Below the pieces are notes generated by a model. It searched no databases. It saw nothing but the letters and a program-made list of their open reading frames with translations, and was not told the DNA's origin. A program made the translations under genes and the position numbers. DNA of 64,000 nt from Rhizobium sp. Q54 (GTDB lineage: Bacteria; Pseudomonadota; Alphaproteobacteria; Micropepsales; Micropepsaceae): positions 1-64,000 of the forward strand of contig CAMAPL010000011.1 of assembly GCA_945860165.1 (NCBI GenBank), read 5' to 3'. Positions 127 to 46,640 of the stretch are shown here, piece after piece. How positions within the stretch are numbered: position 1 is the stretch's first letter; each line of letters opens with the position of its first letter.

Positions 127-277
127 TCTCGCCAGATAAATTATCTCATCTGGTGAGAGGTATCGACTAGTGAGAGGTATCGACTAGTGAGATGTATCGA
201 CTAGTGAGAGGTCTCGTCTAGTGAGAGGTCTCGTCTAGTGAGAGGTCTCGTCTAGTGAGAGGTCTCGTCTAGTGAAA
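127..277. repeat. Tandem array of ~9 units, 17-bp period (15-bp dyad TCTCR-N5-TGAGA plus 2-bp spacer)
   Basis: Unit starts at 127 (degenerate), 144, 161, 178, 195, 212, 229, 246, 263; e.g. TCTCATCTGGTGAGA (144-158), TATCGACTAGTGAGA (x3), TCTCGTCTAGTGAGA (x3), TCTCGTCTAGTGAAA (263-277). Confidence 0.95.
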
Positions 278-443
278 GAAGTTTTTGGGTCAAGACTTAT
301 AAAGATACTTCCAGCTTCGGCTAATAAAAGCCCTCTTCGTTGAAACCGCCACGTTAAAAATATAATGACCTGAAAGCGCTTTTGCGCTATTTACTAGTGC
401 GTAACATTACTATTAGTTTAGTGAAAATTTCTGGGAGACCGCG

Positions 444-1799
444 ATGAATCGTAAAGCACTGTTTGCATCTGCGTGGATAGTAGCGCTTGCGGCCTTCGTG
501 ACCGGAGCACAAGGCCAAGGGGAAAAGTATAATCTCGATGCGGGTGGGAAACCCTGCGCGGGCATCCTAGATCATGAGAAAAACTGCCTTGACCCGTCGA
601 TCACGCGCAACACGCTCGATCGCCCCTATCGAGGATCGTTGTACGATCCTAAGACATACAAGCCCAGCCAGATGCCGAATTTCGTGCGCAAGGGTCGAGA
701 TCTGATTTATATTGCAACGCCAGGCGGTGAATCTGACCAGCCCAAAATCTCTCACGGCGAGGGGATCATAGTTCTGGACCCCTCTACAAATTACGGCTTC
801 GTCAAGCGCATTCCGCTACAGGGCCTCCCGGCCTCAATGAAGCCGGAAGAGGTTAGCGCAATGATGGTCTCGCCAGTGACCAACTACGCTTACATCTCAA
901 CTCGCGGTCGCTTGATTGCTCTCGACCTGGCCACAGACAAAATAGTCTGGAGCAGGACGTACGATCCGATTAATACGTGCTGCGAACGCGGTGCAGTGAC
1001 GCCCGATGGACTTACACTGGTTGTGGGCTCAAACCTGCAGAATTTTCATCGCGTAATTGACGCCTGGACCGGTGAAGTGAAAGGCATAATTCCAACACCG
1101 CAGAGCCCCAATAATCATAATATGGTTATGTCGCCAGACGGAAAGACGGTATTCGCTGCGCCGAACGGAGTGACCCTCACGGTGGCGACGATGGAAACCA
1201 TGAAGCCGATAAAAACTATCACCTTCAGTGACCATGTAAGGCCGCTTGTGATTAATTGGGATGCAAGCCGTATCTATGCAATCCTGAACAATCTGTTGGG
1301 CTTTGAGATTGCAGATGTAAATTCTGGTAAGGTAATTAAGCGAGTAGAAGTGCCTGGTGAAATGTGGAAGGCGAAATGGGCCGATCCCAATCAGAATTTT
1401 CCCGGTGGTCACGGTGCGCCGTCGCACGCCATCGGTATGACACCTGACGAAAGCGAGCTTTGGATCGGCGACGCGATCAACACACAGCTTCTAGTGTTTG
1501 ACAATGAAGGCAAGGACAACTGGAAACTCAACATGACCAAATCCTTGAAGCTTGATCATGTTCCAGCCTGGATCACGATGGGCCTAGACGGCAAGCTCGC
1601 CTACCTGTCGTCCGGTGACGTAGTGGACGTGAAGACGCACAAAGTTGTGGGAAAATTACGCGACGAGTTTGGCCGTCTAATCTACAGCGAGAAGATTCTG
1701 CATATCCAGTTCAACGACAAGGGGCACGTGACCAGGGTAGTGGACCAGTTTGCCAATGGCATTCCGGAACTTGTCAAACGGAGAATGCTCTCTAAATAA
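444..1799 (+). CDS. Exported YVTN/NHL-type beta-propeller protein
   Basis: Signal peptide MNRKALFASAWIVALAAFVTGAQG; repeated propeller-like blades (TPDGLTLVVGS, SPDGKTVFAAP, TPDESELWIGD). Confidence 0.65.
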   Translation: MNRKALFASAWIVALAAFVTGAQGQGEKYNLDAGGKPCAGILDHEKNCLDPSITRNTLDRPYRGSLYDPKTYKPSQMPNFVRKGRDLIYIATPGGESDQPKISHGEGIIVLDPSTNYGFVKRIPLQGLPASMKPEEVSAMMVSPVTNYAYISTRGRLIALDLATDKIVWSRTYDPINTCCERGAVTPDGLTLVVGSNLQNFHRVIDAWTGEVKGIIPTPQSPNNHNMVMSPDGKTVFAAPNGVTLTVATMETMKPIKTITFSDHVRPLVINWDASRIYAILNNLLGFEIADVNSGKVIKRVEVPGEMWKAKWADPNQNFPGGHGAPSHAIGMTPDESELWIGDAINTQLLVFDNEGKDNWKLNMTKSLKLDHVPAWITMGLDGKLAYLSSGDVVDVKTHKVVGKLRDEFGRLIYSEKILHIQFNDKGHVTRVVDQFANGIPELVKRRMLSK

Positions 1800-2370
1800 G
1801 AGATATAATGCCATCATTAGCATTCTCCGCGTCCACCTTCAGGGAAGATTGACGGCAGAACATCTGTTAAGGTCCTGATTTTCTGGATTACCGGTAGTTC
1901 TATTTCTAAACGGGATTAAGGCAGATATTTGTCAGATGGTTGAACAGGATTAATTAGAATACACTAAGCTAAGTTGCCTCTGCATTGATGGCAGGAAAGG
2001 CGCGGATGATGCATTAGCTGGCCTGCTCTAAGATGTTAGAGTACAACGGCAATGTTCAGGCGGGGCGAAAAATTCTGGAGGCGATCCATCTCGGTCGTAG
2101 CCAGCAGTACTATGTGAATCCCTAGGTTCGACCTGTATTGCTGGGACAGTCTGAGGCGCCTCGACCTAGATGCAAGTATATCTTTCCTCGCGCCACGCTG
2201 TAGCGACGAAAATCCTACACCTAGCCAACCAAGCGGTGATTTTTAAATCTGGCCTGATCCATAAGACAGATGATTTCGAATTTAGGGCCGGCTATGCAAA
2301 CAAGCGCATCAAAGTCTTTTCTCTATACGGGGAATATAGCGCCGGCACCTGCGTTTGAAATTGAGGGAAG

Positions 2371-2880
2371 ATGACTAGGATTATTTATCGAACTTTTGCC
2401 CTAGTTGGCCTAGCTTTCTATCTAGTCGCCTCAAGTTTCGTTTCTGCTCAAGGTGCGCCCGGAGACTTGGAAGTGATCACCAAGGCTTCCGACCTGGACC
2501 CCGATATGGCCAACGCGCGGGCCGTGGCCACGGTCTGCACCTCCTGTCATTCCTCCTCGCTATTTTTGACTGCCGCGCGACCATATCTTAGGTGGGAGGA
2601 GACGATCCAAAATATGCTGGATCGGGGCGCGGTAGCGACAGACGAACAGCTGAACCGCATTCTTACCTATCTAGTCAGAAATATTACCATAGTTAATGTA
2701 AATAGCTCGCCGGCCGATCAGTTGGCCATGACACTGCAAATTTCTGCCGCCGCGGCTCAGGAGATTGTCACACGGCGATCTGGACGTACTTTTACTAATA
2801 TCGATCAGCTAAAAGCCATAAAAGGTATCAACACGGACGTACTACAAAAGCTGGGTACTAAAAACCTCCTTCAATTCTGA
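2371..2880 (+). CDS. Exported c-type cytochrome with C-terminal helix-hairpin-helix (ComEA-like) domain
   Basis: Signal peptide; CTSCH heme motif; C-term NVNSSPADQLAMTLQISAAAAQEIVTRRSGRTFTNIDQLKAIKGI resembles an HhH repeat. Confidence 0.65.
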   Translation: MTRIIYRTFALVGLAFYLVASSFVSAQGAPGDLEVITKASDLDPDMANARAVATVCTSCHSSSLFLTAARPYLRWEETIQNMLDRGAVATDEQLNRILTYLVRNITIVNVNSSPADQLAMTLQISAAAAQEIVTRRSGRTFTNIDQLKAIKGINTDVLQKLGTKNLLQF

Positions 2881-3140
2881 CGTTGCTTAGCCACGCCGGT
2901 TCGCGATGCGACTGGAAAAAAAAGGCCGCAATCAGCGTTTCAAGTGCAGCACATTACTTGGATAATGAGCGCTTGCAGTCCCTGACCAAGGATGTTCGCC
3001 GGATCGCCGAACTGATCAGCCGCGAACTGGAATGGGAAGGCCAGCTTGCCTCTGTTCGAAAGACTGTCCCGAAGACTGCACAGGCGGCTACGCCGCCCTT
3101 CCTCTCGGTATTTCCGTCCCCGTGCTGGTGGTTTTTCCGG

Positions 3141-4166
3141 TTACGTCGCCACCAGATATGACTTGAGATAGGTGCTCAGCGCCAACCGTATTTGCGCCTT
3201 GTGCGCCTCGGTGATCTCCCCGCCGCGGCGGCGGCTACCGCCGGCGGGCTGGCCGGGCACCGGCGGATTGACGCGCATGATCGCGTCTTCCGCGAAAACG
3301 CCGCGCGCCTTCATGACATACTGATTTGCATGCGGCAGAGAATTAAACGCCAGGAAGCGGCCAAAGGTGTCATAAGCTGCCTGCTTACGGTTTGCACGGT
3401 AGGAATTGAAGCAAACCTGAAGAAGATCCGCCATTCCGGTATAGGGCATTGTCCCCAAAAATCCGAGTTCCAGCTCGGCGAAGAATGTCATGCCACCCAT
3501 GCCAGAAAAATCTGTGAGTTTCCCTCCAGATTTCTGCAGCAGCCTCGTGACACGCTCCAGTGGCTCTTCGTCCGTTTCGTCTTTTACCGCCACGACTGCC
3601 GGGACCGCTTCTGCCAGCGCGACAAGACTATCCACACTGATATCTCCAACAGCCTGAACCATGATTGGCAATCCGCTCGCATCCGACAGCGCCTTGAAAT
3701 ATGCGACTACTTCGGAATTACTCGCGCCCGGAGGCGTCAGTGAAATGATCGCGTCGGCATTTAGGCTTTTCGCCTTCCTGGCATAGGCTTGGGAAGCGGC
3801 CGTGTTGAAGCCGATGGTCTGCACCCCCAGCATCAGCGCCGTATCACCCTTTACAGAGGCTAGTGCTTCCGCGCCGGCATGCCATTCTGCCTGCGTAAGG
3901 CTCTGCCAACCACTGGCATTCTGGGGCCAAGCCATCCCGGCGACTTTGCCCCGGTTCAGAAACTGCTGCTGCTTTACCATCGCATCGACATCAAAACTGT
4001 TGTCCGCCCTGCACGGCGTCCAGCCGATCGGAAATACGCCGGCCAGCGGCTTGCCATTCGGTGACTTTATGGCACTTGCAGCGGCGAGCGCCCCGCCACC
4101 GTTGACAGCGAGAAGACCTAGCGCTGCGCCCGTGTGCTGCAGAAATTTCCGGCGATTACCTGTCAT
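3141..4166 (-). CDS. Tat-exported dihydrodipicolinate synthase (DHDPS/NAL) family protein
   Basis: Tat-like MTGNRRKFLQHTGAALGLLAVNG; class I aldolase lysine context VVAVKDET. Confidence 0.75.
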   Translation of the reverse strand: MTGNRRKFLQHTGAALGLLAVNGGGALAAASAIKSPNGKPLAGVFPIGWTPCRADNSFDVDAMVKQQQFLNRGKVAGMAWPQNASGWQSLTQAEWHAGAEALASVKGDTALMLGVQTIGFNTAASQAYARKAKSLNADAIISLTPPGASNSEVVAYFKALSDASGLPIMVQAVGDISVDSLVALAEAVPAVVAVKDETDEEPLERVTRLLQKSGGKLTDFSGMGGMTFFAELELGFLGTMPYTGMADLLQVCFNSYRANRKQAAYDTFGRFLAFNSLPHANQYVMKARGVFAEDAIMRVNPPVPGQPAGGSRRRGGEITEAHKAQIRLALSTYLKSYLVAT

Positions 4167-4228
4167 ACAACTGTCCTTTCGATGTTTCCCGTCCGGGGAC
4201 TTAAGGACCCAGACATTTGCGGCCCAGT

Positions 4229-4262
4229 AAAAAAAAACCCCGTCGATTTCTACTCGACGGGG
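4229..4262 (-). terminator. Rho-independent terminator downstream of TonB receptor
   Basis: CCCCGTCGA / TCGACGGGG stem; on the minus strand followed by a T-run (A-run 4229-4237 on plus). Confidence 0.8.
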
Positions 4263-4306
4263 CCAATCCGGTAAGCAGAGAGCTTACTTGGAATTTTATT
4301 ATGCAA

Positions 4307-7219
4307 TCAGAATTGCTTGCGCAGGCTCATCACGGTGTAGCGTCCCAACGTCGATCCGCTCGCAACGATATAGGCGCCACCATTGCTCGCCTTAGCAGCA
4401 CCGCCCGAGAGATAGATCGGCGGGCTGGCGTCGGCAATGTTGTTCATCGTGACGCTGAATTCCGTATCGCTCAGCCACGGGGCCAAGTCGGCCAAGTTAT
4501 AGCTGACATGCATGTTGACCGGGCGGAATGATTCGATGCGCGCCTGCTTATACAGGGACAAGGCCTGGTTAAGGACGGGCGAAACGTTGAAGCCCGGGCT
4601 ATAATTCATCGTCACCCGGCCTGTCACAGGACCGACATTGGCCGCCAGGAACATGGTGGCGGCCGAGAGCGGAACGCTATACTTCACGAGATTGATGGGT
4701 TTTATGCCCGGGGCAGGCGTATTGTTGTTGGTCGAGTTGAAGGTGCCCGAAAATCCGCCCGACAGGGTGCCAAAATCTTCGATATCCGTCACGTAATTCA
4801 ACGCGATGTCCAGACCCTCGATCAACGCCTCGCCGAGATTGTTGCGACGCAGGTCATAGAGAATATAGGGCTGGTTTACGCCCGACGTATTGAAGGCCGA
4901 GGACAGATCCGGTCCAGGGAACCCGGTGGTAGCGACTTTTGCAGTTCCGTCCGCATTAAAATTAGTCGGATAGCGGGCCTGGACCTGGGCCAGGGTGGGG
5001 TTGAGCATAAAATACTGATTGTAGGCCCCACTGAACAGAACACTGGGGTTATTGAGGATCAGGCCCTGCTGACGTTGGAACTTGGTATGGAAAGCGGTGA
5101 CGCTGATTTCGAGGCCGGTCAGGTTTATGCCCAACTCGGTGGTGGGATGGAAATCGCCGCCGATCGACCAGGTCCTGCCGGTTTCTGGCCCCAGGAGCGG
5201 ATTTCCGCCCGGGGTGGCGATGGTGGGGCGCAGCGCGTCGGCAGCCGACGTGCCTAACGGCACGTTGGTGTTCGCACTGGTACGCTGGGCGCCATAGGAG
5301 AAACGCGTATCCGGCGCCGAGGTGTCGGCAAGGCTGGGCGCGACATACGAAGTACCATTGGTGGCACGGATGGTCAGAGCCGCGATGGGTTCATAGGTGA
5401 TACCCACTTTGTAGTTTGCGGTGTTGCCGAAGTCGCTGTAGTTGTCGAGGCGGCCCGAGACATTGAGGGTTAGGGCGCGCACCAACGGCAGTTCATTGTC
5501 CTTACCAACAATCGGGATGTTCACCTCGGCAAAGCCCGAATTGATAATGCGGTGCGGCCTGGCGATCGCCATCTGAGCGCCGGGCGGCGCACGCCCCGCT
5601 TCCGTACCGATCGGCCAGTTGGTGTTCCAATTGGCGACATAGTCTTCAAATCCCGACTGGCCGCCGATAGCGGCCTTCACCGCGCCGCCGGGCAGTTCGA
5701 ACAGCGTACCGGTTGCCGACCCACCCCACTGGGTCTGATGCTGAATGGCCTTCCCGTAATTCCCGGTATTCAGAATATTGTCGATAAGCAGAGAATTGCC
5801 AGCATTGAGATTGTAGGGGTTCACCGCATTGCCGGCGAGACCCGCGCTGGCGACCAGCTCGGGCGTCAGAACGCCGGCGACGGTCACCCGGCGCATCGAT
5901 TGAGACAACAGCGCCGTATTGATCCCTCTGTTGAAACCGGTGGTGTTGCTGCGGCCATAGTTTAAGGTCGCAGTTGCCTCCCAGTCACCGAACGGTAGGT
6001 CCACCGTCAGTTTGGGCGTGATCTGAAACACCTGGATGTTGTTGCGATCGGTGAGGCTGTTGCTGCCCCAGAAAGGACTGAAGTCAAAGGAAGCGTTATG
6101 GGTGGTTTCACCGTTAATGGACTGAAAATATGGATTGGTGGTGTCGATCGCGATATTTGTGGCGCTCACCATAGGGTTCACAGCCGAATTCAGGCGCGTG
6201 GACCAGAGAAGCTTGGTCGAAAAATCGACGCCCGGCATGATGCGCTGGTGGAACTGGCCGAAGAACGAATTCTGTTCTTCCCTGGGGAAAAGCGACATGG
6301 CGGAATTGGTGTCGCAACGATTGAGCGAACCCGCATTGGTTATGGAATTCAAACCGCCAAACGGACCCGCGGCAGCAGCCTTCAGCGAACCTGGCGTGAG
6401 GGACACCGTATTGCTGGTCAGGGCGTAGTTCTGGCCGCCGGCAGAGATGTTCGCCAGACCGCACGAGGTGCCGCGCGAGTCGCGGCCGCCGATGTCGGTC
6501 TTGTCCATCTTGGTATAGGGCCGGTTCCTGGCCATCAGGAAGGTATTTTCCTTGTGTTCGAACGCCAAATAGGCGCCGCCGCTACCCCAATCGGTACCGG
6601 CCATCATGGCGCCGTTGAAGGCGCTGTAGCCGTCGGCCGTGCCGACCGAGACATTGGCCCGGAAGCCCTGATAGGTATCGAGCGTCACGAAATTGATGAC
6701 GCCGGCGATCGCATTGGCGCCATAGATCGACGAGGCGCCGTCGGGGAGCACGTCCACTTGGCGCAGCACGATCGTCGGAATGACACCCGCGTCCGGCGTG
6801 GTCGCCAACCCGCTGACGCCCACCATGTTATGCCCGTCCAGCAGGAGCAGTGTCGATGAACCGCCGAGGATGGTCTGGGCAGGGTTATAACGGATCGAAG
6901 GCCGCACGCCGCCGATATTGATCGCGGTGGGCGAGACAGTCTGGGTGTTAAAGGTATTGGCAAGCTGGGGAATCTGGCCAAGGATTTCTTCCGTCGTGAT
7001 CGCGCCGGTGGACCTGATGGTGTTGGCGTCAACCGTAATCAGGTTCGTACCGCCCGGGGCGATACCCTTAATCGACGTGCCAGTGGCGGTTACGGTGACT
7101 TCTTCCGTCGCCGCGACCTGAGCCTGCGCTTGTCCCGCGAGTACTGTTGCCAGGGCGCCCAACGACGCGCCACACAAAAGTCTCTTGATGAAATGCACAT
7201 TGGCAGCGTTGAAATTCAT
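4307..7219 (-). CDS. TonB-dependent receptor
   Basis: Signal peptide ending AQAQ, TonB-box-like EEVTVTATG, plug motif, C-term aromatic-rich strand ending RKQF; start at MNFNAANVHF (7219) preceded by AAGGGGGA SD. Confidence 0.85.
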   Translation of the reverse strand: MNFNAANVHFIKRLLCGASLGALATVLAGQAQAQVAATEEVTVTATGTSIKGIAPGGTNLITVDANTIRSTGAITTEEILGQIPQLANTFNTQTVSPTAINIGGVRPSIRYNPAQTILGGSSTLLLLDGHNMVGVSGLATTPDAGVIPTIVLRQVDVLPDGASSIYGANAIAGVINFVTLDTYQGFRANVSVGTADGYSAFNGAMMAGTDWGSGGAYLAFEHKENTFLMARNRPYTKMDKTDIGGRDSRGTSCGLANISAGGQNYALTSNTVSLTPGSLKAAAAGPFGGLNSITNAGSLNRCDTNSAMSLFPREEQNSFFGQFHQRIMPGVDFSTKLLWSTRLNSAVNPMVSATNIAIDTTNPYFQSINGETTHNASFDFSPFWGSNSLTDRNNIQVFQITPKLTVDLPFGDWEATATLNYGRSNTTGFNRGINTALLSQSMRRVTVAGVLTPELVASAGLAGNAVNPYNLNAGNSLLIDNILNTGNYGKAIQHQTQWGGSATGTLFELPGGAVKAAIGGQSGFEDYVANWNTNWPIGTEAGRAPPGAQMAIARPHRIINSGFAEVNIPIVGKDNELPLVRALTLNVSGRLDNYSDFGNTANYKVGITYEPIAALTIRATNGTSYVAPSLADTSAPDTRFSYGAQRTSANTNVPLGTSAADALRPTIATPGGNPLLGPETGRTWSIGGDFHPTTELGINLTGLEISVTAFHTKFQRQQGLILNNPSVLFSGAYNQYFMLNPTLAQVQARYPTNFNADGTAKVATTGFPGPDLSSAFNTSGVNQPYILYDLRRNNLGEALIEGLDIALNYVTDIEDFGTLSGGFSGTFNSTNNNTPAPGIKPINLVKYSVPLSAATMFLAANVGPVTGRVTMNYSPGFNVSPVLNQALSLYKQARIESFRPVNMHVSYNLADLAPWLSDTEFSVTMNNIADASPPIYLSGGAAKASNGGAYIVASGSTLGRYTVMSLRKQF

Positions 7220-7241
7220 GGCGTCCCCCTTAAATTTTAAT

Positions 7242-7270
7242 AAGGTTTCGCACACGAAGTGCGAAACCTT
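7242..7270. repeat. Perfect 12-bp inverted repeat in the 5' leader of the TonB receptor gene
   Basis: AAGGTTTCGCAC-acgaa-GTGCGAAACCTT. Confidence 0.9.
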
Positions 7271-7330
7271 ACCTAGCTATGAAGGGATGCTAGAAATTCT
7301 CAAATCTGTCAAAAGTCTCGGGGGGGGGTA

Positions 7331-7345
7331 TCTCATAGAGTGAGA
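7331..7345. promoter_or_regulatory. Operator-like dyad TCTCA-TAGAG-TGAGA upstream of TonB receptor
   Basis: Exact TCTCA-N5-TGAGA, 112 bp upstream of ATG 7219; matches array at 127-277. Confidence 0.75.
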
Positions 7346-7386
7346 GATTACCCCCCCCCCCGAGCCTGTGACATGAGCCCCAAATA

Positions 7387-8421
7387 TTAAGAAAGTCCTG
7401 GCTGCTCTGGCGCTCGCTTGATCCACTTGTACGCGGCGACGGAATTTTTCCAAAAATACTTCTCGGCCGCCGCACGGCTTTTTCCGGAAAAATACTCCCG
7501 GACAAGGACAACAGTGTCGGGTACTTCTGAAACACCCACGGCGTTCGGCCAATCGCTGCCGAACACAACGCGATCTTCACCAAAATAGGTCATCAACATG
7601 TCCAGGCGCTCGCGATGGGCCGCCAGACCCCGGACAATCACGGGGGGCGCGGTCGGGAGCCTGGGCTGTGAGGACTGCTCCGCGGCAGGTGTGGGCCTTA
7701 CGGAGCCGGGCGGACGAACGGGATGCACGATCTGGGACAATTTCGCCCAGATGTTCTTGCGCTGCGAAATCTCTTTCAGGATCGCCTCGAACTCGGCCTG
7801 GTTTTCCGGCGAAGGATCGAACGCCGGCAAGTGATCCAGCACAATGCGCAATTCGGGAACCTTGTCGTTCACCCGGACAGCGGCCTGCAGCAGCGCGATA
7901 TTCTGGTTTGCCGTCTCCAGCACCAGGTCGTGCTGGGCCAGCAGCTTGAGGTTGTCGATGACCAGGACATTATCCGTCTGCTTGGGCAGGTCATAGGTCC
8001 AGAGATTGCCGTAGCGAATGCCGCGATACAGGGGGTTTCTGGCGAACCGCTCGAGATATTCGCCAAATTCCGGTTTTTCTGGCCTCAGATTGCCGACCGT
8101 ACCGACCATGATGGGTTCGGGCTGGATGGTCTCCAGCACCCAAAGATTGTCTTCTAGCCAGGGACTGGCATCGACTTCGATTACCCCCACGATCCCAAGC
8201 GGTTTGGCGATCTTGGCGTACATAGAGGGCAAGGCGACGCCCCCGGCAAAACCGCGACCGCCCTTGTAGGGAGCCCCCTGCGGACGATTGGCATCGAACA
8301 GATGGATGTGACAGTCGATGATAGGAATATCGTCAATCGTCGCGGCGCACGCAGGCGCGGCTGCCGCAGCAAACGCGGTTGCGGTCGTTCCGGCAAGAAA
8401 TTTTCTGCGACTGCAAGTCAT
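7387..8421 (-). CDS. Tat-exported amidohydrolase_2 family protein
   Basis: MTCSRRKFLAGTTATAFAAAAAPACA; metal-binding IIDCHIHLFD; C-term VVFGSDWPN. Confidence 0.8.
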   Translation of the reverse strand: MTCSRRKFLAGTTATAFAAAAAPACAATIDDIPIIDCHIHLFDANRPQGAPYKGGRGFAGGVALPSMYAKIAKPLGIVGVIEVDASPWLEDNLWVLETIQPEPIMVGTVGNLRPEKPEFGEYLERFARNPLYRGIRYGNLWTYDLPKQTDNVLVIDNLKLLAQHDLVLETANQNIALLQAAVRVNDKVPELRIVLDHLPAFDPSPENQAEFEAILKEISQRKNIWAKLSQIVHPVRPPGSVRPTPAAEQSSQPRLPTAPPVIVRGLAAHRERLDMLMTYFGEDRVVFGSDWPNAVGVSEVPDTVVLVREYFSGKSRAAAEKYFWKNSVAAYKWIKRAPEQPGLS

Positions 8422-8522
8422 TGCGGGCCATCACGATTCTTCAGGCGAGCACGGAATGCGCCAACCGCTTTGAAGCGTTCCCAGTACGTCCCTGCCTGTC
8501 AATGCAAATCGCAGATGCCGCC

Positions 8523-8537
8523 CCTCATATACTGAGA
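8523..8537. promoter_or_regulatory. Operator-like dyad CCTCA-TATAC-TGAGA upstream of amidohydrolase
   Basis: One mismatch to TCTCA-N5-TGAGA; 102 bp upstream of ATG 8421, in the intergenic gap. Confidence 0.6.
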
Positions 8538-8569
8538 GGGCCGCGCAAAGAATCCTCGCCGACGTTGCT

Positions 8570-10480: not shown

Positions 10481-10646
10481 TTAAAGCTGGGCTTTCCATG
10501 CAAGGTCATTCCTATACCGAAGCGTTGAACTTCCCAACATTCCTCTAGACCGGATCTTTGCCGCATGGCCTAATGGGGTGGGCAACCAGCCGCTGCATAT
10601 GGAAGGTGCCCCGAGCACGTATGTAGAATTTCCCGATGGAGCCAAA

Positions 10647-11210
10647 ATGAAAAGGTCTGTTGCATGCGCCGTGCTGGGCGGCGTCCTTTTGATCCAGCCG
10701 GCATTTGGCGATACGCGGGACGACGTTTATGCAGCAGCGCAGCGATGCCGCATTCTCCAGGATGACCGTGGGTGGCTAGAATGCATCTACGGAGCCCAGC
10801 AGCCGATGCGCGCAAAATTGGGGCTGCCCCCTGCAACGGAAATTCAGCAACGCCTTGTTCCGCTCGCCGGTTTGTCACCGGCCATGGCAGCCGCTCCGCA
10901 AAGAATTCCGCCTTCTTCGCAACCCCAGCCTTCGGTGCAACCCCATCGCCGGGCGAGCTTGATGCAAATCCTTACCGGCAGCGCGCCCCCTGTGGCGGTC
11001 TCTGCCCTTGCATCCGTGCAATACAACAGCCAGGAGGCCTTTGTCGCCACCCTGCAGAACGGTCAGGTCTGGCGTCAGGTCAACGCGCTCGGCGAAAGAG
11101 CCCCGCTGAAGGTCGGAGCCAGGGTAACCATCACGCCGGGCGCCTTAGGCAGTTACAATCTGAAAGCGGACGGCGCGTCCCACACCTACAAGGTTGAGCT
11201 GAGATCGTAA
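10647..11210 (+). CDS. Small exported protein, paralogue of 37814-38368
   Basis: Signal peptide MKRSVACAVLGGVLLIQPAFG; CRILQDDRGWLECIYGAQQPMRAKLGLPP and NGQVWRQ shared with the paralogue. Confidence 0.6.
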   Translation: MKRSVACAVLGGVLLIQPAFGDTRDDVYAAAQRCRILQDDRGWLECIYGAQQPMRAKLGLPPATEIQQRLVPLAGLSPAMAAAPQRIPPSSQPQPSVQPHRRASLMQILTGSAPPVAVSALASVQYNSQEAFVATLQNGQVWRQVNALGERAPLKVGARVTITPGALGSYNLKADGASHTYKVELRS

Positions 11211-11387
11211 GCCTATGGATTGGCGTCAGTCTCAATGTCGATAAGTAAGCTCTAAAGAAATATCGCGCGCCTAATTTCGAGAGACGGGGCGCACTTGGCA
11301 TTTCTCCCGTCTAGCGAGAAATCCATGGTGAGATCTAGGGACGGCCAATGGGATGAAGAAGATCGGACAGAGTATGGTTGGCATCTT

Positions 11388-11702
11388 TTACAACCACATT
11401 ACCCGGAACTGCTCTAGCCGGTGGTTACTGTGGAGGGCTGGATCAGGGGAGGAAGGGTAGTCTTCCCACCCTTGGATACTACAAGACCTATAACTGCAAC
11501 CAACCCCCACTGCGAGCACACTGAGAAAAATAGTATTGTCACCCGCTTGAGCTTGCTTCACGCCGGTAGAAGTGCCGGCCAGCAGTGGGCCCAAGTCCCC
11601 AGCCAGAGCGGCTGAGATAGATGCTGAGTTAGATAAGGCCAACGCTACAAAGGTCGAAATAATAAGCATCTGCCATGTCCCCTTGCTGGTTTTGACCATC
11701 AA
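11388..11702 (-). CDS. Hypothetical small protein (weak)
   Basis: ORF with possible signal sequence only. Confidence 0.2.
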   Translation of the reverse strand: MMVKTSKGTWQMLIISTFVALALSNSASISAALAGDLGPLLAGTSTGVKQAQAGDNTIFLSVLAVGVGCSYRSCSIQGWEDYPSSPDPALHSNHRLEQFRVMWL

Positions 11703-11813
11703 TTCATGGCGATTTAAAAACGACCCTAACTAGGTACAGGTGCAGTTTGACACAGCTGAGCGGCACTCGCGTCCTGAATTTACGGACGGGAATGCGCATC
11801 CTGCAAAATAGTT

Positions 11814-12266
11814 TCAGGGCGTCATTGGAATCATCGCCGGCGGCTGTGGCGAAGTGAATGCGGTCATAAGCCAGTGGCTGTAGTTTGGGTTCGGTTTCCA
11901 TCCCGGCCTGCAGTCGCAGTCTGCCAAGAATTTCCAGAGAGTTTCTTGGGACCTCGATCTGACTTGACTATCCGTGACGCGTTTGGCGTCGCGATCTACC
12001 GCAAGCGCCCGCATCTCCGCCGCATATACTTCAAACGCATCCATCTTCGTCAAGTTGATAATCTTGGCAAAGCCGCTTTCGGCAGTCAATTGGCATGCTT
12101 GCCACTCGGAATAGGTCTTAAATTCTTTTGCGATCCATCTGGTTTTACAGGCGACAGTCTCCTGCTGCAGTCCGGCGGCAGCCATTGGCATGACGGATTT
12201 GTCGTAGCCGTCCGCGCAGCTTGCAAGCATCAACGCGAAAATGGTGATGGTCAGGATACGTCTCAT
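11814..12266 (-). CDS. Hypothetical lipoprotein
   Basis: MRRILTITIFALMLASCADG lipobox LASC. Confidence 0.5.
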   Translation of the reverse strand: MRRILTITIFALMLASCADGYDKSVMPMAAAGLQQETVACKTRWIAKEFKTYSEWQACQLTAESGFAKIINLTKMDAFEVYAAEMRALAVDRDAKRVTDSQVRSRSQETLWKFLADCDCRPGWKPNPNYSHWLMTAFTSPQPPAMIPMTP

Positions 12267-12411
12267 GCCTATGCCTCCCATTCTACGAGCAGGTTCACTA
12301 TATTGCCAATGTCCCAAAGCCGTTCTCAAAGATGCGCGGCGATAGCGAGCGAGATGCGAACACTGCTGTTGATGCGGCCGAAATTATACCAGCAAGCGCA
12401 AAGGCTGTCAT

Positions 12412-12600
12412 ATGGACATGATTATCAATGTTCTTGAAATGAACGGCCATCCGTTGGGCAAATCGCTTAAAGTGCTGGCGCATGATCCGGTTATGCTTTT
12501 CAACATAGCTGCTCCAAACCAAGGCTTCGCGCGGCTTTCCCAGGCCGAGTTCTCATATCCGTTGAAGCTGGGCTTGAGGGACCTTGAGATGAAGGCAGGA
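12412..12600 (-). pseudogene. Degenerate IS1-family-like transposase C-terminal remnant
   Basis: SYVEKHNRIMRQHFKRFAQRMAVHFKNIDNHVH resembles the SYVERxNLxxRxxxRRxxRxxxxFSKKLENH transposase motif; no intact ORF. Confidence 0.45.
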
Positions 12601-12646
12601 TTAGCTTAACCGAGCTTCATCCGAACCGGGTGCAAGCCAACCGGCC

Positions 12647-12661
12647 TCTCAATAGGTGAGA
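12647..12661. promoter_or_regulatory. Operator-like dyad TCTCA-ATAGG-TGAGA upstream of enolase-superfamily gene
   Basis: Exact TCTCA-N5-TGAGA, extended by one more pair (C...G); 80 bp upstream of ATG 12742. Confidence 0.75.
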
Positions 12662-12741
12662 GACTGGCGCGCGGCGCAGGTTAGTGTTCGGTTACGCGCT
12701 ATTTAAGATCACGCTGTAGCACCACAAATCCGAGCAAACTC

Positions 12742-14025
12742 ATGATCATCGACAAGACGGATCGTCGCCGCGTGATGGCAGCCCTTTCCGCCGGCGGCGC
12801 GCTTCTGGTCGGCGGCGCTGCAGAAGCCAAAACCGCTATGACAGAGCCCCTCAGAAAGCTCAAAGGCGAAGCGCAGAAAATTGTCGTCAAAAGCGTGACC
12901 ACGTTTGACGTGCTGGTTCCCCCAACAGGTGCCGCGCCCCCCACCCGAACCGGCGGACCGCCGGGGCGCACCAATGTCACATGCGTGGAAACGGCGAATG
13001 GTGTGAAGGGCTATTCGTTTCTTGGCTCGACAGCGCAGCAGATTTCCGCCGCCCAGCCGGTGCTGGTGGGCCAAGATCTTTTCGAAATTGAAAACCATCT
13101 GAAGAACGGCCTTATTCGATGGGGCGGAATCGAAGAGGCGATGTGGGACGCGATTGGAAAGATCGCAGGAACATCCGTCGCCCATCTTCTGGGAGGCAGC
13201 GCGCCCGATCAGCCGGTCTATGTCACCTATGTCTGGCCCGGAACAAACGGTCAGGAGACCATCACGCCCAAGCAGCAGGCGGAGCAGGCCAAGCTCCTCA
13301 GAGCGGCGGGCTTCCGGGCTATGAAGATCCAGGTGTTCCGGCGGAACTCTCAGGTGGACGCCGATGCCTGCGCCGAAATCCTTTCCGTAGGCGGGCCGGA
13401 CTTCCGGGTCATGGTCGATCGCACCGCAGACCGCTCACCCAATGGTCTTTGGAGCTATGACCAGGCGCTAGCCGCAGCGCATGCGCTGGAAAAGGCGGGT
13501 TGTTATTGGCTGGAAGAGCCTCTAGCACGCGACGATTATGAAGGGCCCGCGCGCTTGCGCCGCGAAAGCGGGATCATCATTGCAGGCGGCGAAGGTTATC
13601 ACGGACTGGAACCCTACAAGCAGTGCCTGATTCACGGCACATACGAAATTCTCCAACCCGAACTGCGCCTGATAGCCGGCATCTGGACCGCGAGAAAGGT
13701 AGGTGTGCTGGCTGAAGCCTGGGGACTTAAGACGGCACCGCACGGGATCTCGGGATTGGCCTGGGCCGGCCGCCTGCAAGTCGCGGCGGCGATGGGTTCG
13801 GTATACCAGGAAATAGCAGTTTTGAATCCGCCGTGGCTGCCGGAAGACTATTGCAGGCCCTACCTGCCACTGCTGTACGGCGAGCAACCTTTCAAGTTTG
13901 AAGGTGGCAGGTGCCGTGTACCACCATATCCCGGGCTGGGATTGAACGTCGACGAGAAGGCGTTGGCGCATTATCGCGTCGAAGGTCTACAGGGCATTGG
14001 CCCTCCCGCCCCTCCGCCCCCCTGA
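12742..14025 (+). CDS. Mandelate racemase/muconate lactonizing enzyme (enolase superfamily), probably exported
   Basis: DRRRVMAALSAGGALLVGGAAEA Tat-like N-term; AMKIQVF, WLEEPLARDDYEG, IIAGGEG, ILQPELR motifs. Confidence 0.8.
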   Translation: MIIDKTDRRRVMAALSAGGALLVGGAAEAKTAMTEPLRKLKGEAQKIVVKSVTTFDVLVPPTGAAPPTRTGGPPGRTNVTCVETANGVKGYSFLGSTAQQISAAQPVLVGQDLFEIENHLKNGLIRWGGIEEAMWDAIGKIAGTSVAHLLGGSAPDQPVYVTYVWPGTNGQETITPKQQAEQAKLLRAAGFRAMKIQVFRRNSQVDADACAEILSVGGPDFRVMVDRTADRSPNGLWSYDQALAAAHALEKAGCYWLEEPLARDDYEGPARLRRESGIIIAGGEGYHGLEPYKQCLIHGTYEILQPELRLIAGIWTARKVGVLAEAWGLKTAPHGISGLAWAGRLQVAAAMGSVYQEIAVLNPPWLPEDYCRPYLPLLYGEQPFKFEGGRCRVPPYPGLGLNVDEKALAHYRVEGLQGIGPPAPPPP

Positions 14026-14095
14026 CATCCTGAGCATCATAGAACTGATGCCTGCCCGTCATTTTTCAGATATAAAAGAACATCCGTCAGAATAG

Positions 14096-14740
14096 ATGGC
14101 AAACAGAGGACCGGACGAAATGCCAATTGTTTCTCACGAAGTTTATCCGCTTTTTGTCGAACCCTATTTTCGGGCGAACGTCGCCGGGACCATCACGCCT
14201 AAGCAGATCGCCTTCATCAAGAACCTGAAGATGGTCAACAATATGGAGAATCTGATTTCGGAGAATCTCTATATTTTCGAGGAGCCAGAACTCAGGAGCA
14301 TCAAGGACGCCGTGCAGGACGTACTTGACATCTATGCCCGCGAAGTGATGTGCATTCCCCAGAAGCTCTATGTTACCCAATCATGGTCACTGACCTGCAA
14401 TTCCCAAGTCGGCATGCACGGCCATTCGCATTCCAACTCGGTACTGTCGGGATCGCTGTATTATTGTGAGCTGCCTTCGCCGACCGCGAGCATGATATTT
14501 ACCCGCCATTTAAGCTATCAGCAGATAGACTTGGCTCCCGATGCCAGCAAGCGCAACGTATACAACACTCCGATAAACAGGATCATACCAAAACAGGACG
14601 ACATCATTCTTTTTTCTTCGCGCCTGACCCATCTGGTTGAGCAGAACGCATCGAGCGTTCCCCGTCACTCGATCGCGTTCAATAGCTTCGTAAAAGGAAG
14701 ATTGGGAAATTATCGCGATGTGTCGGAACTCGTACTTTAA
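14096..14740 (+). CDS. Putative 2OG-Fe(II) oxygenase
   Basis: GMHGHSHSNSVLSGSLYYCELP (HxH..NSxxSGxxY) and distal H/R in SSRLTHLVEQN...PRHSIAFN. Confidence 0.7.
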   Translation: MANRGPDEMPIVSHEVYPLFVEPYFRANVAGTITPKQIAFIKNLKMVNNMENLISENLYIFEEPELRSIKDAVQDVLDIYAREVMCIPQKLYVTQSWSLTCNSQVGMHGHSHSNSVLSGSLYYCELPSPTASMIFTRHLSYQQIDLAPDASKRNVYNTPINRIIPKQDDIILFSSRLTHLVEQNASSVPRHSIAFNSFVKGRLGNYRDVSELVL

Positions 14741-14788
14741 TTTTGATCGGGCGGATGCCGCATTTTCCTGCCCGTATGCCCGTAAAAG

Positions 14789-17287
14789 GTGAATAAGTTC
14801 ATGGCTGCCTCGAGTATAAAAACACTAATCGTCGCCGGTATCGTCGTTGCAGGGCTCGGATCTGCGGCCTGGATAAATGCTATTGCGCAAAACGCGCCTC
14901 GCGCGGCGGCGCCCCTCTCTGCCGCCGATGAGGTCAGCGCGCTTCAGCAGATCAACGCCACCTGCGCCGGCTGTCACGGCCAGAATGCTGCGGGGGGCGA
15001 TCGCGCGCCTTCGCTGATCGATTCCACATCCTTGCGCAAAATGGATGCCGCGCAGATAGCGGCGATCATAACCGGTGGAACACCGCGCGGTATGCCGCCT
15101 TTCACCAACCTTCCCACCGCACAGGTCGCCAATATTGCGGCCTGGATACATTCCAAGAACCTGACTAACGCCGTCCAGGGTACGCCCGAACAGGTCGCAG
15201 CTGGCGAGACGTTTTTCTTCGGAGAAGGAAATTGTGCCGGCTGCCATATGGTGCGCGGCAAGGGCGGATCGAACGGCCCGGATCTTTCGGCGCTGGCTGC
15301 CAATCTGACACCGACCGAAATCACTGGATACCTGGACAATCCAACCGATCGCATGGGTACTAAGCGGACCGCTGCTTGTCCGGGCTGGGCTTTCTGCCCT
15401 GATATGCAGTGGACGGTTATCAATGTGCGCATGCGCGACGGCACAAGCCTGCGGGGTTTTGCGCGCGCCGAGGCCGAGCACAGTCTGGCGGTACAAAGCT
15501 TTGATGGAAAAACCCATCTTCTGACCGCCAAAGATTATGAAGGTTATGCGCGCGAGACCCAGTCCTACATGCCTTCGTTGAAAGCGACGCCGGCCCAGCG
15601 CAGCGCCCTGGTGGCCTATCTCGGGAGCTTGCGCGGTGTGCCGCTTGGCCCGTTGGCCCGTGCTGCGGGTTTCAGCGCCGCAGACATGGATGCGGCCGTG
15701 CGGCCCAAAAAAGGGGAATGGCCTTCTTATAATGGCGGCCCTGACGGCAATCGCTACAGCGCGCTCGACCAGATCAACGGGGGCAATGTCTCGCGGTTGA
15801 AGGCGGCCTGGCTGTTTTCACCGGGCGGCCTGGGGCTGGAAACGACCCCGGTCGTCATGGACGGCATCATGTACGTCACAGGCGCACAGCAGGTTTGCGC
15901 TCTGGATGCACGCACGGGCCTTCGAATCTGGTGTGCGCCGCGCGTGTCGGGCCAATCCGTCCGTGCCGGCGGCGCACCCATTGCGCGCCCTGGCGCCGGC
16001 GCCGCGGCGTCCGCCTCGCCTGCCGCGGCATCGCGACCGTTTGGCGGCGTCGCCAGCGGCGTGGGTCCCAATCGCGGTGTCGCGGTGCTGGGTGACCGGG
16101 TCTTTTTCGAGACGGATGATTCCTATCTGGTCAGCGTGAACCGGCGCACCGGCGGGGTTGTTTGGGTGGTACCGCTGACAGACCCCAAATTCCCGGGGCT
16201 TTATTACTCGACCGTTGCACCGATGATCGTGGGGGATCTGGTCGTGGCTGGTGCTTCGGGCGGAGGGCCCGGCCCTCGCGGATTCCTTGTCGCTTTCAAG
16301 GCTTCCACCGGCGAGCTTGCCTGGCGGTTCTGGACCATCCCGACGCCGGACGAACCGAACGCGAAAACCTGGAAAGGCAATGCGCTGCGTATCGGCGGCA
16401 CAGGTGGCGCGGGCACCTGGATGACCGGCTCCTACGATCCGGACGCCAAAATCCTCTATTGGGGAACCGCCAATCCTTTGCCTTCCAACGATGGCGATGA
16501 ACGTCAGGGACGAAATCTGTATGCCAACACCATTCTCGCGCTCGATCCGAAGACCGGAAAGCTGAAATGGTTCTACCAACCCACGCCGCACGATCTGCAT
16601 GACTGGGATGCGACGGCGCCGCTGGCGCTGGTTGATGCCAACTATCAGGGCCGGCCGCGCAAGCTTCTGATTCAGGCCAATCGCAACGGTTTCCTGTATG
16701 TGCTGGACCGCATCACCGGTCAGCTGCTTTTCGCCAAGCCCTTCGTCAAGAAAATGAACTGGGCAAGTCATATTGGCGCCGACGGCATGCCTGTGCTTCT
16801 GCCGGACTATGCTCCAACCGACGAAGGCCATGTGAAGTGTCCGGCGGTGCGCGGGGCGACCAACTGGTTTTCCACATCCTACAATCCTGGCACAGACCTG
16901 TACTATGTCATGGTCGCCGAAGATTGCGGCTATTACCGCAAGACTGGACGGCAATATGGCCCCAACCCCGACCTGAAAGACCCCGGCAAGCGTTTCCTGC
17001 GCGCCCTGAATATCCATGACGGATCACTGGTGTGGGAAAAGCCCTTATCGGGCTCGCATGAGGCCAACTATTCCGGCGTGCTTTCGACGGCGGGTGGTCT
17101 AGTATTCGGCGGAGAAACTGCGGGCGGTTTTGCGGCTGTCGATGCCAGGACCGGCAAGACGCTGTGGAGTTTCCCCACCAACGACTCCTGGCGGTCATCA
17201 CCCATGACCTACATGCTGGACGGCGAGCAGTATGTCGCTGCCGCGGCAGGCGGCAACATCATCTCGTTCAAGCTGGGTGAAAGATAG
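14789..17287 (+). CDS. PQQ-dependent dehydrogenase with two N-terminal cytochrome c domains
   Basis: CAGCHGQN and CAGCHMVRG heme sites before PQQ propeller repeats (WPSYNGGPDGNRYSALDQIN, HDLHDWDATAPLALVD); GTG start or ATG 14801. Confidence 0.85.
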   Translation: MNKFMAASSIKTLIVAGIVVAGLGSAAWINAIAQNAPRAAAPLSAADEVSALQQINATCAGCHGQNAAGGDRAPSLIDSTSLRKMDAAQIAAIITGGTPRGMPPFTNLPTAQVANIAAWIHSKNLTNAVQGTPEQVAAGETFFFGEGNCAGCHMVRGKGGSNGPDLSALAANLTPTEITGYLDNPTDRMGTKRTAACPGWAFCPDMQWTVINVRMRDGTSLRGFARAEAEHSLAVQSFDGKTHLLTAKDYEGYARETQSYMPSLKATPAQRSALVAYLGSLRGVPLGPLARAAGFSAADMDAAVRPKKGEWPSYNGGPDGNRYSALDQINGGNVSRLKAAWLFSPGGLGLETTPVVMDGIMYVTGAQQVCALDARTGLRIWCAPRVSGQSVRAGGAPIARPGAGAAASASPAAASRPFGGVASGVGPNRGVAVLGDRVFFETDDSYLVSVNRRTGGVVWVVPLTDPKFPGLYYSTVAPMIVGDLVVAGASGGGPGPRGFLVAFKASTGELAWRFWTIPTPDEPNAKTWKGNALRIGGTGGAGTWMTGSYDPDAKILYWGTANPLPSNDGDERQGRNLYANTILALDPKTGKLKWFYQPTPHDLHDWDATAPLALVDANYQGRPRKLLIQANRNGFLYVLDRITGQLLFAKPFVKKMNWASHIGADGMPVLLPDYAPTDEGHVKCPAVRGATNWFSTSYNPGTDLYYVMVAEDCGYYRKTGRQYGPNPDLKDPGKRFLRALNIHDGSLVWEKPLSGSHEANYSGVLSTAGGLVFGGETAGGFAAVDARTGKTLWSFPTNDSWRSSPMTYMLDGEQYVAAAAGGNIISFKLGER

Positions 17288-17317
17288 GCGGGCCGCGCCA
17301 GGAAAACCTGCGTGTCA

Positions 17318-17340
17318 CCGCTTCCCTTGCCGGGAAGCGG
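17318..17340. terminator. Intergenic hairpin between convergent genes
   Basis: CCGCTTCCC / GGGAAGCGG followed by GC-rich second hairpin; no clear U-run. Confidence 0.4.
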
Positions 17341-17375
17341 TCGGCGGCGGCTATCGCCGCCGCCTTCGCAAATCA

Positions 17376-18305
17376 TCAGGCCGACATGCGGAAGCGGAAC
17401 ATCCAGCCCGCATCGTCGCAGTTGTACATATGGCCGTTCCACAGTTTTGCGCCGTGGATGACCGGGGAATCCGACGGCAGTTGCAGCCGCTCAGATATCT
17501 GGCCGGTGGTGGCGTCGTGTAGGAAGAAGGCATTCAGGTCAGAATCCGAGGCCCAGAAGTGGGTCTTGGCATCGTTGGTCCAGGTCATGTCATGCGGACG
17601 GCTGCCAGCCGTCTGGATCAAGTTCTGAACAACCCATGTGTTCTTGTCGATGACGAAGATCATCCGGGCGGGCGGCACGGCCACATAGAGCAAATTGCCC
17701 TTGACCAGGATGCAGTGCGCGCCGGTGCCTACGGGGCCGGCTTGGACACTGTCGTCCTGAAGGCCCGCCCCTCGGCGACCGCCCGAACTCAGGGTGCCGG
17801 CGACCGGCGGCGGGGGCTTCGGCGGTTCGGGATAGGCGGGTTTCAAGTTGGTACGGCGGCCCGGCACGTCGGAAACGACCTTGTAAATCTGGCCAGCGCC
17901 CGGGGTCGAGTATTTGCCTTTCAGCTTGCCGGTGCGCTCATCAACCGCGATGATCAAGCGGTTGTATGTCGAGCCGACCCAGACCGTGTCGCCGTCGACG
18001 GCAATGCCCGAGGCCGAACGAACGCCCTCGCACACATACTCGCGGATCAGGACGCCGTTTTGCGGATTGATCAGGGAGGCATAGTTTTCTGGGCCCTGGT
18101 CCATGATCCACATGCCCTCGCTCGTGACGTCCAAACCGTTTGGCTTGGTGTGCGGGGTCTTGTAGATGACCTCGATGGCGCTGGAGGCGATGTTGCGGGT
18201 GCGAATGCCCGACAGGTTCGGCAGGGCCGCAGAAGCCAGTTGCGGGAAAGCCGCAATCGCTGGCGCAGATGCCGCCATTGCCAGAATTCGCCGACGATCG
18301 ATCAT
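17376..18305 (-). CDS. Exported beta-propeller (SMP-30/NHL-like) protein
   Basis: MIDRRRILAMAASAPAIAAFPQLASA signal; GIAVDGDTVWVGSTYNRLIIAVDERTGKL propeller motif. Confidence 0.65.
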   Translation of the reverse strand: MIDRRRILAMAASAPAIAAFPQLASAALPNLSGIRTRNIASSAIEVIYKTPHTKPNGLDVTSEGMWIMDQGPENYASLINPQNGVLIREYVCEGVRSASGIAVDGDTVWVGSTYNRLIIAVDERTGKLKGKYSTPGAGQIYKVVSDVPGRRTNLKPAYPEPPKPPPPVAGTLSSGGRRGAGLQDDSVQAGPVGTGAHCILVKGNLLYVAVPPARMIFVIDKNTWVVQNLIQTAGSRPHDMTWTNDAKTHFWASDSDLNAFFLHDATTGQISERLQLPSDSPVIHGAKLWNGHMYNCDDAGWMFRFRMSA

Positions 18306-18416
18306 GGTGTTTCCTCTTATATTATTGCTTGTTAAACGAACAAAACCCGTATTGCGGGTATGGTAGACGCGAGCCATTTGAGCGTCAACGAAGCCGGGAG
18401 ATGGCGGCGCCCCATC

Positions 18417-18431
18417 TTTCACCAGATGAGA
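18417..18431. promoter_or_regulatory. Operator-like dyad TTTCA-CCAGA-TGAGA upstream of 17376-18305
   Basis: Reverse complement TCTCATCTGGTGAAA differs by one base from array unit 144-158; 112 bp upstream of ATG 18305. Confidence 0.7.
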
Positions 18432-45767: not shown

Positions 45768-46640
45768 ATGGCCGTCAAACAAGCTCCCAGCCGCCTGCAA
45801 GGCGAACTGGCGCGCCGCATCCTGCGCGCGCTGAAAGCGCAGAACGCGCCCATCGGCTACCGCCTGGTGGAACTGGACCTGTGTGCCGCCTTTGATGTCT
45901 CGCGCACACCCGTTCGCGGCGCGCTGCAATTGCTGGCGGCGGGTGGCGTGATCACCGCGCGGGAGGGGCGCGGTTACGTGCTGGCCAAAACCATCCAGGA
46001 CGCACCCGAAGACGCCAACGGCGAGGACGAGAAAGACGATCGCCTGTTCGCTGGCCTGGCCGAGGCGCGCGCCAGGGGAAAGCTTGCCGACCAGTTCACC
46101 CAGCAGGAAGTCGTGCGCGCCTTTGATGCGCGGCTGTCCAGCGTGATGCGGGTGCTGCGGCTGCTGGCCGAACTGGGACTTGTCGAGCGCCGACCCGGCA
46201 ATGGCTGGGCCTTCATCGCCGATGCCGCACGGGTTCTGAACGAAAGTTATGCCTTCCGCCGCGCGCTGGAGCCGCAGATGCTGCTGCAACAGGGCTTCCG
46301 GCTGGATCGCACCTGGGCGGAAAAAGCCCGCGCCAGCCACGAAAAATTGCGCAAGAAGCCCTGGCGGGCCGGCGACGGCGCCGATTTCCACGACATCAAC
46401 GCCGATTTTCACGAGCAGTTGGCGCGCTGTTCGGGCAATCGCGCCATGCTGAGGGCTGTGCAAAATCAGATCCAGTTGCGCCGTTTTCTCAGCGGTCAGT
46501 GGGACTATCCGGTGGATCAGGTGCACAGCGCCATCGACGACCATCTGGAAATCCTAGCGGCGCTGGAAGCGGGATATGCCGATAAGGCCGCGGCGCTCAT
46601 GCTGCATCACCTGACCACCAGCGCATCACAGGCGCACTGA
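45768..46640 (+). CDS. GntR family transcriptional regulator
   Basis: N-term wHTH (LDLCAAFDVSRTPVRGALQLLAAGGVITAREGRGYVL) and FCD-like C-term (FHEQLARCSGNRAM...HLEILAALEAGYADKAAALMLHHL). Confidence 0.85.
   Translation: MAVKQAPSRLQGELARRILRALKAQNAPIGYRLVELDLCAAFDVSRTPVRGALQLLAAGGVITAREGRGYVLAKTIQDAPEDANGEDEKDDRLFAGLAEARARGKLADQFTQQEVVRAFDARLSSVMRVLRLLAELGLVERRPGNGWAFIADAARVLNESYAFRRALEPQMLLQQGFRLDRTWAEKARASHEKLRKKPWRAGDGADFHDINADFHEQLARCSGNRAMLRAVQNQIQLRRFLSGQWDYPVDQVHSAIDDHLEILAALEAGYADKAAALMLHHLTTSASQAH

Follow-up and report, generated by a model that had tools for sequence, protein, structure and literature searches.

The window analysed here is the first 64 kb of contig CAMAPL010000011.1 from Rhizobium sp. 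Q54, a freshwater bacterium with a genome of 2.48 Mb. Genes for a TonB-dependent receptor, an amidohydrolase, an enolase-superfamily protein and two exported beta-propeller proteins are each preceded in this window by copies of a 15-bp palindrome, TCTCA-N5-TGAGA (Table 1). This motif, its relation to an IclR-family regulator encoded on another contig and the genes that it may control are the subject of the analysis. A first-pass annotation of the window had read the motif as the shared operator of a regulon of exported catabolic genes, and every site that it claimed was recovered in place. The distances to the start codons were also as described: the operator of the TonB receptor gene lies 112 bp before the in-frame ATG, that of the amidohydrolase gene 102 bp and that of the enolase-superfamily gene 80 bp before the start, and that of propeller gene 17376-18305 112 bp before its ATG. 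For this propeller gene a start at ATG 18305 is more likely than the GTG at 18422 with which the open reading frame (ORF) begins.

Table 1. Operators, promoter elements and genes discussed in the text; positions refer to the window unless a contig is named, and bits are scores of the position matrix.
Feature	Position	Strand	Remarks
Array of eight 17-bp units	144..277	+	Upstream of propeller gene 444-1799; unit 1, 25.6 bits
Exported beta-propeller protein	444..1799	+	Cytochrome c/HHH gene 2371-2880 behind
DHDPS-family (KDG/KdgD-like) protein	3141..4166	-	Tat-type signal NRRKFLQ
TonB-dependent receptor	4307..7255	-	Plug and barrel domains (Pfam); DHDPS-family gene next on the same strand
-35-like TTGACA of TonB-receptor promoter	7307..7312	-	18 bp downstream of operator 7331
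TonB-receptor operator TCTCACTCTATGAGA	7331..7345	-	24.0 bits; retained at orthologous promoters L058:11067 and L057:14182
Amidohydrolase_2 protein	7387..8421	-	Tat-type signal SRRKFLAG; weak similarity to L-fucono-1,5-lactonase
-35-like TTGACA of amidohydrolase promoter	8497..8502	-	20 bp downstream of operator 8523
Amidohydrolase operator TCTCAGTATATGAGG	8523..8537	-	14.7 bits
Enolase-superfamily operator TCTCAATAGGTGAGA	12647..12661	+	24.8 bits; predicted to serve the genes behind as well
Enolase-superfamily (MR/MLE, sugar-acid dehydratase-like) protein	12742..14025	+	Tat-type signal DRRRVMAAL
2OG-Fe(II) oxygenase-like gene	14096-14740		Directly behind the enolase-superfamily gene
Cytochrome-c/PQQ propeller gene	14789-17287		Behind the 2OG-Fe(II) oxygenase-like gene
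Exported beta-propeller protein	17376..18305	-	Tat-type signal DRRRILAM
-35-like TTGACG	18383..18388	-	28 bp downstream of operator 18417; TACCAT 17 bp beyond
Propeller operator TCTCATCTGGTGAAA	18417..18431	-	24.2 bits; predicted target, exported propeller gene 17376-18305
IclR-family gene	C3:176041-176871		Last gene of its operon; outside the window

Three exact copies of the motif occur in the window (144-158, 7331-7345 and 12647-12661), against 0.06 exact sites per 64 kb that its ten fixed bases should yield by chance. One-mismatch copies were found at 8523-8537 and 18417-18431 and in the array units at 212, 229 and 246. In the whole genome the exact motif was present four times, the fourth copy lying at position 178934 of contig C3 (C3:178934), while the reversed pattern was absent; with one mismatch allowed there were 18 matches versus 7 for the reversed pattern. 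Two mismatches gave no excess in the window (19 seen, 15 expected), and the informative sites are therefore those that deviate at no more than one position. One-mismatch matches on C1, C2, C10, C15, C20, C27 and C31 were treated as background, being located in or at coding ORFs or having a low matrix score. The consensus was read as TCTCAYN3RTGAGA, with variable central bases.

A position matrix trained solely on sites of other genomes was run on the window, with the reversed window as control. The sites before the five genes received the scores given in Table 1 and the weaker array units 9.4-15.0 bits. The best score outside the named sites was 10.4 bits, at 11305, and the maximum of the reversed window was 8.5 bits. 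Between 20 and 64 kb nothing exceeded 8.3 bits, which bears out the earlier remark that no site lay among the housekeeping genes. Since a matrix trained outside the genome put the window sites on top, they are not a product of reader bias. The 10.4-bit match (11305-11319, TCCCGTCTAGCGAGA) is weakly operator-like, resembles an array unit and lies between ORF 10578-11210 and position 11814. A sequence-only covariance model of the motif was too weak to recover every site of its own genome, where it gave four rows, namely two palindromes each matched in both orientations.

The array before propeller gene 444-1799 had been placed at 127-277. An array is present, but its true extent is 144-277, since 127-141 is merely one extra half-site. 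Unit 1 (144-158) is the only canonical operator of the eight; the remaining seven (units 2-8; TATCGACTAGTGAGA, TCTCGTCTAGTGAGA/AAA) are weaker and have G instead of A at the fifth half-site position. The tandem pattern was absent from the other 68 genomes of the genus, and judged by this comparison the array is a lineage-specific expansion. Its 17-bp period corresponds to 1.6 helical turns per unit, so neighbouring dimers would face different sides of the DNA. The array may thus be a local expansion with a modest effect or none.

The motif reaches at least three promoters outside the window, at C3:178934, C3:175874 and C17:5541. In the C3 region (L001) the exact site at C3:178934 stands at the head of an operon in which the genes of acetaldehyde dehydrogenase and 4-hydroxy-2-oxovalerate aldolase (DmpFG) are followed by that of an IclR-family protein. 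A further C3 site, with one mismatch, lies between this IclR gene and a pyrroloquinoline quinone (PQQ) dehydrogenase gene, and the C17 site is 121 bp upstream of a TonB receptor gene. The IclR protein (276 aa, where about 250 residues are usual for the family) matched PF01614 with 143.4 bits (cut-off 24) and PF09339 with 25.5 bits (cut-off 22), and with both HTH_IclR and IclR_C above the curated cut-offs it belongs to the IclR family; its best solved relative is 1mkm. The operator upstream of the regulator's own operon is the arrangement of an autoregulated local regulon. Only two proteins with IclR_C are encoded in the genome. The second, at C9:9814, was not recovered with the C3 IclR as query at E 1e-20, and neither its locus nor its contig contains the motif, so that one candidate protein remains in this genome.

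Relatives of the C3 IclR were sought in 120 genomes, and the surrounding DNA was taken irrespective of the motif. In 354 kb of such DNA there were 38 motif matches and none for the reversed control; one contig (G039:C38) was counted twice, as L040 and L060, and without L060 there are 36 matches. Nearly every IclR or DmpFG-IclR operon with its promoter on the contig has a site upstream, and in an alignment of 14 IclR/DmpFG promoters the half-sites were near-invariant and the flanks not conserved. The site also accompanied distant IclR homologues in L056 (35% identity) and L054 (38% identity, one mismatch), and an exact site was located in the divergent IclR/DmpFG promoter of Novosphingobium humi plasmid homologues (37-40% identity). 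The comparison across the genus covered 69 genomes: 16 are IclR-positive and contained 51 exact sites, and 53 are IclR-negative and contained 32 (controls, 2 and 12). This is 3.1 sites per IclR-positive genome, query genome excluded, versus 0.6 per IclR-negative genome (Mann-Whitney p ~3e-8). A sequence model of the motif had matches in 5 of 6 IclR-positive and in 0 of 8 IclR-negative genomes.

Conservation at individual targets was in agreement with these counts. The promoters of TonB, amidohydrolase, PQQ, DmpF and propeller orthologues have retained the operator. Nine genomes, every one of them IclR-positive, have a close amidohydrolase orthologue (p 2e-7), with the operator kept; four amidohydrolase orthologues are preceded by the operator or by a variant with a 3-bp spacer. 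Operators also precede the DHDPS-family orthologues in L053, L057 and L058 and the propeller genes of L041 and L042. The pair formed by propeller 444 and the cytochrome c/HHH gene adjoins IclR genes in L040, L053, L057 and L058, and in the nearest relative, G039 (Alphaproteobacteria metagenome-assembled genome (MAG) RH-27jun17-417), part of the set of window orthologues adjoins the IclR-DmpFG operon itself. Other exact sites in IclR genomes are often upstream of TonB receptors (L066, L072, L073, L081), and several are inside ORFs. The first-pass annotation had named genome-wide frequency and conservation at orthologous promoters as the checks on its proposal; both were run, the proposal was not refuted by either, and the view that exported or uptake catabolic genes form a regulon with a common operator is strongly supported. 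From this comparative link, the motif is very probably the operator of the C3 IclR.

That another regulator binds the motif, for example the GntR (FCD) protein encoded in the same window (45768..46640, + strand) that the first-pass annotation had put forward, would suit the short palindromes that GntR proteins bind. The motif counts follow IclR instead. The GntR protein was found in 14 genomes of the genus; the four that are GntR-positive and IclR-negative have 1, 0, 0 and 0 sites, while the six that are IclR-positive and GntR-negative have 1-6. The window matrix scan placed no site near the GntR gene, and the GntR-containing genomes G041, G035, G068 and G020 gave no match to the motif model. 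With a motif that neither tracks nor adjoins its gene, the GntR protein was rejected as the regulator, and binding by some regulator other than IclR is very improbable. Equally improbable is that the palindromes are transcript hairpins, terminators or mobile repeat elements. It is true that a long inverted repeat (G9/C11) holds site 7331 and that the array is a minisatellite, but the central bases vary, the half-sites are conserved among orthologues and the flanks are not, the distance to TTGACA is fixed and the counts follow a transcription factor.

The position of the operator relative to the promoter was examined at 74 sites. TTGACA occurred ten times within 75 bp, nine of these at 18-20 bp downstream of the operator and always toward the target gene (binomial p ~5e-10), and the shorter TTGA showed the same spacing peak. 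With the usual promoter layout, this spacing places the operator centre near -62, a class-I activator position. At propeller gene 17376 the hexamer is TTGACG and its distance 28 bp, roughly one helical turn beyond the usual spacing. Given a -35 element 18-20 bp downstream at many targets, activation from upstream is the most likely mode of action, and on this promoter geometry the IclR protein probably activates rather than represses. The same operator and protein might instead act by repression that the inducer relieves. Repressors are common in the IclR family (PMC8222616; PheR, PMC13273656), the sites are 76-112 bp before the start codons, and no -35 element was found at 18-20 bp in the array, in the DHDPS promoters of relatives or, in clear form, at the enolase-superfamily promoter (operator 12647). 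Autoregulation is compatible with a repressor and an activator alike. The constant spacing to TTGACA toward the target, in contrast, puts the site upstream of RNA polymerase and not on the promoter, and we regard repression as possible but doubtful.

In the TonB-receptor promoter (7307-7365) a C9 tract lies between operator and -35 element, a long G/C tract is on the other side, and together they form a long inverted repeat. Slippage in the tract could alter the spacing between operator and -35 element and so make expression phase-variable. The orthologous promoters in L057 and L058 do not show this C-tract arrangement.

We consider it likely, with good confidence, that TCTCAYN3RTGAGA is the operator of the C3 IclR and that this protein, most likely as an upstream activator, controls an exported catabolic set. 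From the identity and conservation of the operator, the link to IclR and the spacing we infer that an IclR dimer would bind each 15-bp palindrome and that dimers carrying the inducer would activate from upstream. Such dimers would control at least eight promoters: those of the regulator's own operon, the PQQ dehydrogenase gene, two TonB receptors, two exported propellers, the Tat-exported amidohydrolase and the Tat-exported enolase-superfamily operon with its cytochrome/PQQ propeller gene. The DHDPS-family gene 3141..4166 is likely co-transcribed with the TonB receptor gene.

Several observations weigh against this model. The motif was absent near the IclR relatives of Sphingobium AntQ-1 and Sphingopyxis terrae, and likewise from the Thermus relatives. 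The genomes compared are related and therefore not independent, which makes the p-values optimistic. Two amidohydrolase promoters (L090, L092) have a 3-bp spacer, TCTCA-N3-TGAGA, near upstream of TTGACA. No -10 element was conserved across the promoters examined, which fits a promoter in need of help, and the promoters named above that have no -35 element at 18-20 bp belong here as well. Half-site position 2 is C at nearly all sites, versus T in the IclR group-1 operator consensus GKTYCRYW3-4RYGRAMC (Suvorova and Gelfand 2021, PMC8222616). Finally, in L053, L057 and L058 the orthologues of the TonB receptor, the DHDPS-like protein, propeller 444 and the cytochrome/HHH protein are grouped next to a 48%-identical IclR paralogue, and these clusters in part also hold amidohydrolase, PQQ-cytochrome, enolase, 2OG and TPR genes. 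In these three loci the paralogue may share or own some of the sites. A regulon split between paralogues is nonetheless improbable as a general explanation, the second IclR_C protein of the query genome having no motif about it.

The targets of the C3 IclR, as proposed, would together take up some compound (an organic acid, a sugar acid or an aromatic), convert it in the periplasm and finally cleave it. Tat-type twin-arginine signals, read by eye, begin the amidohydrolase, DHDPS-like, enolase-superfamily and propeller 17376 proteins, which suggests folded cofactor or metal enzymes active in the periplasm. Curated matches of the amidohydrolase, enolase-superfamily and DHDPS-like proteins were weak and far below the cut-offs; they point towards a lactonase, a sugar-acid dehydratase and enzymes of keto-deoxy acids. 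That an aldonate-like route in the periplasm feeds DmpFG is offered purely as a hypothesis. In G056 an alpha-L-fucosidase domain (L063:5776-6858) adjoins the enolase-superfamily and 2OG orthologues, a hint at deoxy-sugar acids as substrate. In G051 there are two exact sites, L072:4960 and L072:7599. One is upstream of a TonB receptor gene, beside aldose-1-epimerase and SMP-30/gluconolactonase-like genes, and the other is at the start of the lactonase gene, next to a divergently oriented JmjC-domain gene. Sugar lactone functions may be part of the regulon.

A broader scenario, which as a whole we hold to be unlikely, is that an IclR activator once local to the acetaldehyde dehydrogenase/aldolase genes was rewired in this lineage to a mostly periplasmic, Tat-exported route. 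This route would comprise a lactonase-like amidohydrolase, sugar-acid dehydratase-like and DHDPS-like enzymes, quinoprotein-type oxidoreductases and TonB importers, with promoter strength tuned by the recent eight-copy operator expansion and by slippable C-tracts between operator and -35 element. The model preferred above, activation of the exported set by the C3 IclR, would tie TonB receptors and exported enzymes to one regulator and one metabolic end point, the cleavage of a 4-hydroxy-2-oxo acid to pyruvate and acetyl-CoA. Substrate and inducer would then become testable in a group known here largely from fragmented, incomplete assemblies.

The motif had been described as matching no operator that could be named, but it largely fits the IclR group-1 layout (PMC8222616), with one base changed. 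It shares with group-1 operators the 15-bp palindrome, the 6-3-6 geometry, five of six half-site positions, a site upstream of the regulator's own operon and several sites at some promoters. Unlike the consensus, in which they are W, the central three bases are not AT-only here. The fixed T-to-C change adds to the IclR operator code and lends itself to comparison with the recognition helix. Published IclR tandem sites have a centre spacing of 18-22 bp (PMC8222616), unlike the array with its period of 17 bp, and on this spacing the array was rejected as a set of IclR three-box sites. At the divergent TonB/amidohydrolase promoter L057:14182-14218, two TCTCG-N5-TGAGA sites are 22 bp apart, which fits the published range.

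Among individual regulators, IphR of Comamonas sp. E6 has the operator GTCTCATCAGAC (Kamimura et al. 2012, as listed in PMC8222616). According to that listing, the IphR operator contains TCTCAT and IphR is likewise an IclR regulator of an aromatic catabolic pathway, but operator length and right half differ and the IphR regulon is that of isophthalate. The best curated NCBIfam match of the C3 IclR was the PcaR/PcaU/PobR subfamily (TIGR02431); membership was rejected (136.5 versus a cut-off of 284.75 bits), and the published operator of this subfamily differs from the motif here. The protein was also below the cut-offs of the other curated subfamilies. Searching the literature for the motif as written, and for IclR together with TCTCA, gave no match. 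PheR of Sphingobium sp. SHPJ-2 is an IclR-family repressor of the phenanthrene pathway with a GCAACG core (PMC13273656); like the C3 IclR as proposed here it controls both uptake and catabolism, and it differs in its mode of action, core sequence and pathway. The same neighbours, IclR, acetaldehyde dehydrogenase and 4-hydroxy-2-oxovalerate aldolase, are found together in Sphingobium AntQ-1, R. wittichii RW1, Novosphingobium humi and Thermus thermophilus JL-18 plasmids, and of these DmpFG-type neighbourhoods that of N. humi shares the operator too. In these organisms the IclR protein accompanies ordinary aromatic-cleavage genes, whereas here the proposed regulon has spread to TonB receptors and exported enzymes. 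The regulon and its operator variant are new, whereas the type of system to which they belong is known.

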